Below, piece by piece: positions 26,112 through 28,959 of a stretch of DNA of 64,000 nucleotides. The position numbers were made by a program, and so were the translations under genes. The stretch comes from Haloterrigena salina JCM 13891 (GTDB lineage Archaea > Halobacteriota > Halobacteria > Halobacteriales > Natrialbaceae). The notes under the pieces were generated by a model. The model was not told where the DNA came from, searched no databases, and saw only the letters and a program-made list of their open reading frames with translations. The stretch covers positions 1 through 64,000 of the forward strand of contig NZ_AOIS01000058.1 of the NCBI RefSeq assembly GCF_000337495.1, given 5' to 3'. Position 1 is the first letter of the stretch. Each line of letters opens with the position of its first letter.

Positions 26112-26138
26112 CCCACACCCCAGGTGTCGAGTGTAGAT
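26112..26138 (-). repeat. Origin recognition box-like repeat, left arm of 27-bp inverted repeat
   Basis: On the minus strand it reads ATCTACACTCGACACCTGGG followed by GTGTGGG. The core CACTCGACACCTGGGGT is the same box repeated many times after the cdc6 gene. All 27 bp match the right arm at 26433-26459 in inverted orientation. The G-string (GGGG) flanked by an inner dyad is typical of haloarchaeal ORB elements bound by Orc1/Cdc6. Confidence 0.8.
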
Positions 26139-26432
26139 GCGCGAAAGCGAGCGCTAGAGTCCGTATCTGGCCAGAGTGTGAATCGACGGTGGTACCAAGA
26201 ACCTCGTGATGGCAAATATCGTATAGTAGAATAAAAGGTTTTATGTGGCATCAATCGAAACCAGATCCGTACTGGACTATCTCACGTTCGAACTACTGTT
26301 CGAACTGATGGATCGTTCGATCCCTTACTTCTCACCGAAATATCTCGCCCGTTACGCTCTGATTCAGCAATCTATACTGCCTCCGCTATTTCTGATACCT
26401 CCCTTTAGATCATTTACCGGGCGTTTTCGACG
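26139..26432. other. Candidate origin core / DNA unwinding region
   Basis: A 294-bp gene-free stretch bracketed by perfect inverted ORB-like arms. It contains an AT-rich patch (about 26213-26246, with aaatatcgtatagtagaata and aaaaggttttatg) as well as TTCGAAC repeats near 26286-26312. AT-rich DNA between oppositely facing ORBs, just upstream of an orc1/cdc6 gene, is the standard layout of haloarchaeal origins. Unwinding here is inferred. Confidence 0.65.
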
Positions 26433-26459
26433 ATCTACACTCGACACCTGGGGTGTGGG
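26433..26459 (+). repeat. Origin recognition box-like repeat, right arm of 27-bp inverted repeat
   Basis: An exact inverted copy of 26112-26138, pointing toward the cdc6 gene. The core CACTCGACACCTGGGGT matches the downstream array. Confidence 0.8.
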
Positions 26460-26584: not shown

Positions 26585-26603
26585 TTTCACTCGACGCGAG
26601 GAT
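26585..26603 (+). repeat. Degenerate ORB-like box
   Basis: TTTCACTCGACGCGAGGAT keeps the left part of the box (TTTCACTCGAC) but has lost the G-string. It lies about 125 bp upstream of the cdc6 start codon and could be a decayed or regulatory site. Confidence 0.4.
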
Positions 26604-26727
26604 AACCGCCATCCGACGCAGATCTTCGATAGAATCTCCGTCGACGCTGATTTCCGACACCTACATCCGACACTCGGTGGCCGCCAATCACTAGTCTATA
26701 TGTGACCGTCCTCGATAGGTGGTGTGT

Positions 26728-27981
26728 ATGGACGACGGCTCCGGTCACGAAAACGAATCTCTGGAGGATTTCTGGGCGACGGAGGACCCGATCTTTAGCC
26801 GCAAGGAACTTCTCGATATCGACCTCGTGCCGAACGAGGACCGGATCATCGGCCGGGACAGCGAAATTCAGAACGTCGCCTCGAGCATTCATCCCGCGGT
26901 GAAGGGCCAATCGCCGCGAAACACGCTCATCTACGGGAAAACGGGGACGGGAAAGTCGCTCGTCGCGAAACACGTCACCAGGAGCGCCCAGCAGTATTCG
27001 GTCGAAAACGGGACGGAGATGGGGCGAGCGTACATCGATTGCACCCAGACGAAGACCGAGACTCGCGTCGTGATCAATCTGGCACAGGAACTGAACGATC
27101 CCGAAGAGACCGGCATCAGTATCCCCGTCACTGGACTCTCGACCGACGTCTACTACGAACGCTTCTGGTCGATCCTGGACCAGCTCTACGACGTCGCGAT
27201 CATCATCCTCGACGAGATCGACAAGCTCCAGGACAACGAGATTCTCATGCAGCTGTCGCGAGCGGGGGAAGCCGGGAAGTTGGACGCCTGTAAGGTGGGA
27301 ATCATCGCGATCAGTAACAAGATCTCCTTCAAGGAATCGCTCGACGAGCGGATTCTCAGCAGTCTCCAAGACCGGGAGTTCGTCTTCCCGCCGTACGACG
27401 CGAACCAGCTCCGCGAAATCATGTACAATCGGGAGGACGCCTTCAGAGAGGGCGTCCTCTCAGACGACGTCATCCCGCTTTCCGCTGCCTTCGCCGCACA
27501 GGAACACGGCGACGCGAGAAAGGCGTTGGATATCCTCCGAAACGCCGGCGAACTGGCGAAGGACGAAGACACCGACGAGGTGACCGAGATCCACGTCCGA
27601 AACGCTCGAGAGAAGGCCGATATCGACCGCTTCTCGCAACTCCTCGAGGGACAGCCGACGCAGATCAAGGCGTCCGTGTACGCGCTGTCGATACTCGCGG
27701 ACCGACACAGCGATCGAGAGGAGTTCGCGACCCGCGAAATCTACGAGATGTACAAGTCCATCACCTCGGACAGCGCCCTCGGGATCGAGACGCTCTCGCA
27801 GCGCCGAATGAGCGATAAACTCGACGAGCAGGTGTTCCTCGACATTCTCGGACGGACCGAACGAGTCGGCCGCGGATACAGTAGCGGCGTGACTAATTAT
27901 TACTACCTGCTGGAGGATCCGTCCGTCGTTCAGGCCGTTATCCACAACGACGATCGCTTCTCCGAACTCGAGCAGCAATAG
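26728..27981 (+). CDS. Orc1/Cdc6-family replication initiator
   Basis: A 417-residue AAA+ initiator of the archaeal Orc1/Cdc6 type, which binds origin boxes and recruits the MCM helicase. Motifs: RDSEIQNVASSIHPA before the nucleotide site; Walker A GKTGTGKS (70-77); Walker B ILDEIDKL (Asp162, Glu163); sensor 1 IIAISNKISF; sensor 2 EHGDARKALDILRNAGE; and a C-terminal winged helix (about 310-410) that contacts DNA. I use ATG 26728; two GTG codons just upstream (26719, 26722) are alternatives. It is flanked by ORB-like repeats on both sides: an inverted pair upstream and about 17 boxes downstream. This is the usual sign of a cognate initiator-origin pair. Copy number and replicon cannot be told from one window. 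Confidence 0.93.
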   Translation: MDDGSGHENESLEDFWATEDPIFSRKELLDIDLVPNEDRIIGRDSEIQNVASSIHPAVKGQSPRNTLIYGKTGTGKSLVAKHVTRSAQQYSVENGTEMGRAYIDCTQTKTETRVVINLAQELNDPEETGISIPVTGLSTDVYYERFWSILDQLYDVAIIILDEIDKLQDNEILMQLSRAGEAGKLDACKVGIIAISNKISFKESLDERILSSLQDREFVFPPYDANQLREIMYNREDAFREGVLSDDVIPLSAAFAAQEHGDARKALDILRNAGELAKDEDTDEVTEIHVRNAREKADIDRFSQLLEGQPTQIKASVYALSILADRHSDREEFATREIYEMYKSITSDSALGIETLSQRRMSDKLDEQVFLDILGRTERVGRGYSSGVTNYYYLLEDPSVVQAVIHNDDRFSELEQQ

Positions 27982-28000: not shown

Positions 28001-28959
28001 ATTCACTCGACACCTGGGGTCTCGAGTCCGCCGTACACTCGACGGTCGACTCTCCGTGTACTCACCGCTCGACTCTCGGGACCTGATTTCACTCGACACG
28101 TGGGGTGAGCGGCAAGTCGATCCGTACGGACCGCCGTTCAACGAACGTGTCTCGATACCACATTTCACTCGACACCTGGGGTGGGTAAATTCGAAAACTT
28201 CGATAATAGCGACTCTAGCCCGGGATACAGGGTGATTACACTCGACACCTGGGGTTACTGACCACACTCGACACCTGGGAAGTCACTACCCAAAGGTTAC
28301 TGATCACACTCGACACCTGGGGTTGCTGATTATACTCGACACTTTGGGTAGTGACTTCTCTACAGGCTCGACTTCTCGAATCATGGGATTGCATTTCACT
28401 CGACACCCGGGGTGACTACTTCCGATGATTTCACTCGACGCCTGGGGTAGTGGGTTTTACGCACCCCTGAGACTCGAGCCCTGAGTCCGACGGAGACGCG
28501 ACATCCAGAATCTCGAGATCGATTTCACTCGACACTCGGGGTGTCAGATTCCTAAGTGTGTGATAGAAATCCGTTCCACCGCGAAATCGCCCTCGTTTCA
28601 CTCGACACCTGGGGTGGTGGTACCGCACTGGTTTCACTCGACACATGGGGTCGTAGTCCACGGCCGGTTTCACTCGACACCTGGGGTCGCAGTCTGCGAC
28701 CGATTTCATTCGACACCTGGGGTGGTAGTCTCGCACTGATTTCACTCGACACCCGGGGTAATAGTCTACGACCGAGACTTGGCTCCGAGTCAGGTCATTC
28801 GGCGACCGGTCCGTCCCGTAGGTTCGGCGGTCACGCTCGAACGGCTGTTCGCCTCGCTATCGTATTTCATTCGACAGTCGGGGTGTCGAGTTCCGGAGTG
28901 GTACCGAGCACCGTTTCTCGCCGTGGAGAAATCGGCCGATTTCACTCGATACTCCGGCT
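28001..28959 (+). repeat. Array of about 17 ORB-like boxes downstream of cdc6
   Basis: Same-strand copies of a 20-bp box, consensus TTTCACTCGACACCTGGGGT. They start at 28001, 28087, 28163, 28236, 28262, 28304, 28330, 28395, 28430, 28523, 28596, 28632, 28668, 28704, 28740, 28865 and 28940. Three are exact (28163, 28596, 28668) and most others differ at one to four positions; 28262, 28330, 28865 and 28940 are the most degenerate. The core equals the upstream inverted arms. Spacing is irregular on the left and regular (36 bp) from 28596 to 28740. The intervening DNA is not unique spacer sequence and no cas genes are present, so this is an initiator-binding cluster, not CRISPR. No gene lies in this ~1-kb stretch. 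Confidence 0.85.
28596..28759 (+). repeat. Five ORB-like boxes at exact 36-bp period
   Basis: Boxes start at 28596, 28632, 28668, 28704 and 28740. The 16-bp linkers are themselves related: the last three share roughly TAGTC or CAGTC followed by GCGAC/GCACTG-like sequence. The true repeat unit here is therefore about 36 bp, produced by recent tandem duplication. Thirty-six bp is between three and four helical turns, so neighbouring bound proteins would be rotated relative to one another. Confidence 0.75.

Follow-up and report, generated by a model that had tools for sequence, protein, structure and literature searches.

Results

Architecture of the locus

The window, as we call the whole 64,000-nucleotide stretch of DNA analysed here, contains an orc1/cdc6 initiator gene that is preceded by a pair of inverted ORBs and followed by an array of further ORB copies (Table 1). 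The neighbouring genes examined encode an FAD oxidase, an AsnC-type protein, and a GNAT acetyltransferase. The TATA-like box of orc1 lies at the right distance from the ATG for a leaderless start, and the two degenerate ORBs ahead of this box suggest autoregulation.

Table 1. Sequence features of the origin region and their positions in the window
Feature	Position	Strand	Description
Left extended ORB	26112-26138	-	CCCACACCCCAGGTGTCGAGTGTAGAT; G-rich end directed away from the spacer; conserved in orthologs
Inter-ORB spacer (candidate unwinding region)	26139-26432		294 bp, 53% AT
AT-richest 36-base stretch of the spacer	26209-26244		75% AT; overlaps the start of element M
Element M	26231-26277	+	47 bases of the type GAAAG-N-TTTAT-N12-GAAAC-N5-CCGTACT; TTTAT starts 101 bp from the left ORB
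Right extended ORB	26433-26459	+	ATCTACACTCGACACCTGGGGTGTGGG; exact reverse complement of the left arm; conserved in orthologs
Degenerate ORB-like sequence between origin and orc1	26589-26602	+	Conserved in close orthologs
Degenerate ORB-like sequence immediately 5' of the orc1 TATA-like box	26661-26679	+	Possible autoregulatory site
TATA-like box of orc1	26696-26704	+	CTATATGTG; some 28 bp 5' of the orc1 ATG
orc1/cdc6 initiator gene	26728-27981	+	AAA+ domain, Cdc6 lid, C-terminal winged helix
Core-only ORB array (15 copies in the same orientation)	28005-28759	+	Period of 36 bp at 28596-28775; candidate site of initiator titration

A perfect 27-bp inverted repeat around 294 bp had been described in an earlier sequence-only reading of this DNA, and the two arms were confirmed to be exact reverse complements of each other. 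At spacings of up to 1 kb, this is the longest perfect inverted repeat in the window, followed by one of 18 bp; in simulated windows (Markov, n = 100) the longest measured 17 bp, compared to 27 bp in the real sequence. The 16-bp ORB core was matched 17 times in the window with up to three mismatches (the two arms and 15 downstream copies), whereas 0.7 matches were expected. In the whole genome (4.84 Mb, up to two mismatches), all matches but one were located at this locus. The AT content of the spacer exceeds that of the window as a whole (36%). Across the window, the GC skew showed no clear switch at the inverted repeat. Within the array, a 17-bp perfect inverted repeat was observed at 28279-28358.

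Ten other orc loci of the same genome were examined, and eight of them possess their own perfect inverted repeats of at least 17 bp upstream; the inverted-repeat architecture is therefore ordinary. The other orc1/cdc6 genes of this genome (L067-L075) were accompanied by inverted ORB pairs of distinct sequence, several of them with downstream ORB copies.

Arms and array in orthologous origins

To score the flanks of the core, the combination of TAC preceding it and GNGNG following it was recorded for arms and array copies. In 12 close orthologs, both extensions were present in 24/24 arms and in 0/115 downstream copies. More distant orthologs gave 25/30 arms and 2/37 array copies; as related genomes are not independent, both sets of counts represent a consistent trend and not a probability. 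The claim that the pair of arms forms a class distinct from the downstream boxes was thus supported, and the description of the latter as core-only also holds in the window itself, where the combination of both extensions is missing from the downstream copies. Invariance of the 27 bp among relatives, which the sequence-only reading had offered as a check, was rejected, since single-base changes within the arms were common. Loss of one arm was not encountered: both arms were retained in every complete ortholog with recognisable ORBs, a set from which one ortholog cut by a contig end and two with diverged boxes, in which arms were not clearly assignable, are excluded. A difference between arms and array in the G-rich end was also present at one other locus of the same genome (L072), and was absent at another (L071).

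Among clear orthologs, the length of the spacer ranged from about 225 to 590 bp. On the basis of its relatives, the window was assigned to Haloterrigena (Natrialbaceae). Orthologs at the level of at least 90% were found in Haloterrigena, Natrinema, and Natronolimnohabitans, and those at about 70-77% in other genera. Several of the latter were located on megaplasmids (Halomicrobium, Halomontanus, Halobacterium, Haloprofundus, Salinibaculum, and Natronorubrum). Because the orthologs span genera and several reside on megaplasmids, the module behaves as a mobile replicator-initiator pair, a pattern that is already known in haloarchaea. In Natronolimnohabitans innermongolicus (L031/L043), about 3 kb with several open reading frames (122, 238, and 338 amino acids) separates the intact ORB pair from orc1. 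On the Natronorubrum aibiense plasmid NZ_CP045489, a stretch of about 6 kb (2.4-8.5 kb; L050/L175) holds two origins that differ in initiator family and in ORB family.

A conserved element between the arms

The sequence-only reading had regarded the spacer as a candidate unwinding region, but had overlooked a conserved element inside it. Alignment of the spacers of orthologs revealed a single conserved block, designated element M, which was not reproduced in shuffled spacers. The sequence flanking it on the 3' side was not conserved.

For searches, the core of M was expressed as the pattern TTTAT-N12-GAAAC-N5-CCGTACT, with the reversed pattern serving as control. Three matches with up to two mismatches were found in the genome of origin, each near an orc-like gene. 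The 125 genomes of the family yielded tens of matches, and the 392 genomes of the order 69 places among the matches listed; the reversed control gave none among the matches listed in either set. An Orc1/Cdc6 gene was present within the fetched locus for 77/82 instances of the pattern, and inverted repeats enclosed most of the 82; these repeats belonged to many ORB types, that of oriC1 among them. Of the positions that the pattern did not specify, one was an A in 99% and another a purine in 100% of the hits, and on account of this conservation we regard M as a real motif. An AT-rich melting core alone, acting with no sequence-specific partner, would be in line with the overlap between the block and the AT-richest part of the spacer. 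We consider this reading highly improbable, as the best-conserved parts include GAAAC and the GC-containing CCGTACT at fixed spacing, and both the conservation of the open positions and the absence of the block from shuffled spacers argue against it.

Independent support came from a profile built from 61 copies of M, none of which originated from the same genus or from close orthologs of this origin. Searched against the whole genome, the profile ranked the window copy second (E = 1.3e-6) behind another origin, and the top four matches were all located at orc loci, the third and fourth being weak (E about 0.04). It was positive in 218/392 Halobacteriales genomes, and in a sample of the phylum positives were confined to Halobacteriales. 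Forty strong matches from the upper end of the score ranking, all of them outside the pattern-search results and not used for the profile, were then inspected: 38/40 adjoined an orc1/cdc6 gene, and 32/40 were situated inside perfect inverted repeats of at least 14 bp, versus 1/200 control points.

Element M is common, but not universal in detectable form, since most orc loci of this genome, distant family members, and the oriP of plasmid pHH400 lack a clear copy. Specifically, 11 orc loci of the genome and an oriC1-like locus were examined, and most were without a clear M. The profile found no match on the whole of pHH400; a degenerate M-like sequence was seen by eye between the ORBs of the active oriP. 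In distant orthologs of the same initiator family, the place of M between the arms is taken by another conserved AT-rich element, ATAATAAAATATATAAATAG. This element occurred on the (+) strand in L050, L051, L063, and L064 and on the (-) strand in L060, L062, and L066. As a consensus of one branch of the distant orthologs, it was also tried on the window spacer and did not fit. At one further locus (L157; G129:C15, 8569-13602), M was located inside a 37-bp perfect inverted repeat and no orc1/cdc6 gene was detected nearby; this is possibly an origin served in trans.

Spacing and orientation of element M

The distance between the 5' end of M and the ORB on that side was characteristic for each family, with values of 53-55, 54-58, mostly 108-110, mostly 127-130, and 53-72 bp, whereas the distance from the 3' side to the other ORB varied widely. 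In Haloferax mediterranei pHM500 (record pHME505), M was found within a 19-bp ORB repeat, 158 bp upstream of orc1/cdc6. Both ORB-associated origins of pHM500 replicate autonomously (ARS activity), and the M-bearing origin is one or the other of the two.

Archaeal promoters have a characteristic spacing from BRE/TATA to the transcription start, which served as the basis for comparison with M. The GAAAG-N-TTTAT part resembles a BRE/TATA, and the CCG about 27 bases downstream, in a conserved start-like block, fits that spacing. Together with the direction of M towards orc1 in close orthologs, this layout would be compatible with an ordinary core promoter for orc1 or another neighbour, kept for expression of the initiator. 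Relative to the initiator gene, however, M pointed towards or away, both ways even within families; it pointed away at most oriC1-type loci and at several others, and, in orthologs of this origin from Halobacterium, was inverted. As its orientation is not fixed, a promoter for orc1 was rejected as the main role of M. The separate TATA-like box of orc1 and the lack of conservation 3' of M also speak against this role, as does its retention between the ORBs in Natronolimnohabitans, where about 3 kb entered before orc1. We judge this explanation very unlikely overall. Compared to the archaeal core promoter in general, the start-like block of M is conserved far more strongly, and the element is restricted to origins and not tied to a gene in its orientation.

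Discussion

Comparison with known origins

The ORB pair of the window resembles that of Haloarcula hispanica oriC1, in which inverted ORBs with outward G-strings precede the initiator gene and surround an AT-rich region (PMC3936714, PMC3528665), and in which both ORBs and their G-strings are essential (PMC3936714). The two origins differ in ORB core and initiator family: the core in the window is distinct from the oriC1-type ORB (CCCCTTCGTTTC...), and no perfect G-rich pair was seen inside the window arms. Likewise, the oriC1 context comprises polA, sec, and gbp, from which the examined neighbours of the window origin differ. The accessible text of the oriC1 papers (PMC3936714, PMC3528665) makes no mention of element M.

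In its arrangement, the locus is similar to H. hispanica oriC2-cdc6E/oriC2D, with an ORB pair before the gene and an ORB-rich region directly after it (15 ORBs in the window versus 11). There, the downstream cluster oriC2D restrains origin activity (PMC3936714). In contrast to the pair, the array ORBs of the window lack the flank extensions, which is a difference from oriC2. By analogy, titration is a more likely role for the downstream array than membership of the initiating pair, and the contrast between extended arms and a core-only array suggests why a downstream cluster could bind the initiator without being an origin.

In Sulfolobus oriC1 (ORB3-ucm-ORB2), too, a pair of inverted ORBs encloses a third conserved element. 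The ucm lies in the middle of the DUE, is essential, and binds UBP, which in turn touches MCM (PMC12141716). Element M is alike in position. It differs from ucm in being long, bipartite, and promoter-like, in its fixed spacing to one ORB, and in its restriction to Halobacteriales in our scan.

Proposed function

Several observations point to a replication origin at this locus: an orc1/cdc6 gene encoding AAA+ and winged-helix domains lies next to it, two or more inverted ORBs with a G-string surround an AT-richer region, and the origin is conserved across species together with its initiator. Judged from these sequence features, the locus is probably an Orc1/Cdc6-dependent origin with a general factor at M and a titrating array. 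In the established model, inverted ORBs surround the DUE and each recruits one MCM hexamer (PMC7776575, PMC12141716). In the sequence-only reading, which was supported in part, the arms had been proposed as high-affinity sites loading the helicase in opposite directions; for the window, both properties are putative. From other archaea, we infer the binding steps as follows. One initiator molecule would bind each extended ORB with fixed polarity, the G-string facing outwards, and the two bound initiators would bring MCM hexamers, face to face, onto the AT-rich spacer. The core-only downstream ORBs may take up spare initiator and thereby restrain firing, as in H. hispanica oriC2, and through the degenerate ORBs preceding its TATA-like box the initiator probably limits its own gene. 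At M, most likely a general DNA-binding factor rather than the cognate Orc1 would bind and help to open the spacer or to position or release MCM. An analogue of the ucm-binding protein is one candidate for this factor; the TBP/TFB pair is proposed as another because M is laid out like an archaeal core promoter.

What kind of factor acts at M depends on how the element is read. It may be a true promoter from which a transcript, or a TBP/TFB/polymerase complex, melts the spacer or primes replication independently of any downstream gene. The promoter layout with its strongly conserved start region, the gene-independent orientation, the fixed spacing to one ORB, and the overlap with the AT-richest stretch of the window spacer are consistent with such a role. 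Priming, though, is normally done by the archaeal primase, and the strength of the GAAAC and CCGTACT blocks, which far exceeds that in ordinary promoters, may point to another protein; we therefore put this reading forward tentatively. We take it to be quite possible, if short of probable, that M is the binding site of a dedicated origin or nucleoid protein with an MCM-bridging or MCM-releasing role like that of UBP at the crenarchaeal ucm. As has been reported for ucm (PMC12141716), M lies between inverted ORBs and is shared by origins whose initiators differ; these parallels, and its confinement to Halobacteriales in the phylum-wide scan, point in this direction. The location of M nearer to one ORB, and not always midway, does not.

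As a general proposal, which we regard as evenly balanced, haloarchaeal origins that rely on different initiators would have in common a promoter-like core element, positioned at a fixed distance from one ORB. Basal transcription factors or an origin protein would act there, in a general step of initiation that does not depend on the initiator. In the accessible main texts, no description of M for haloarchaea was found, and text searches for the motif listed only unrelated papers; an earlier notice elsewhere is possible.

Each archaeal Orc1 recognises its own ORBs, and the common ground of different origins is unclear outside the crenarchaeal ucm. A shared and phased element in haloarchaeal origins offers a target for finding the missing factor. 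Furthermore, M may allow origins to be predicted without knowledge of the ORB, and it may connect the transcription machinery with the start of replication.
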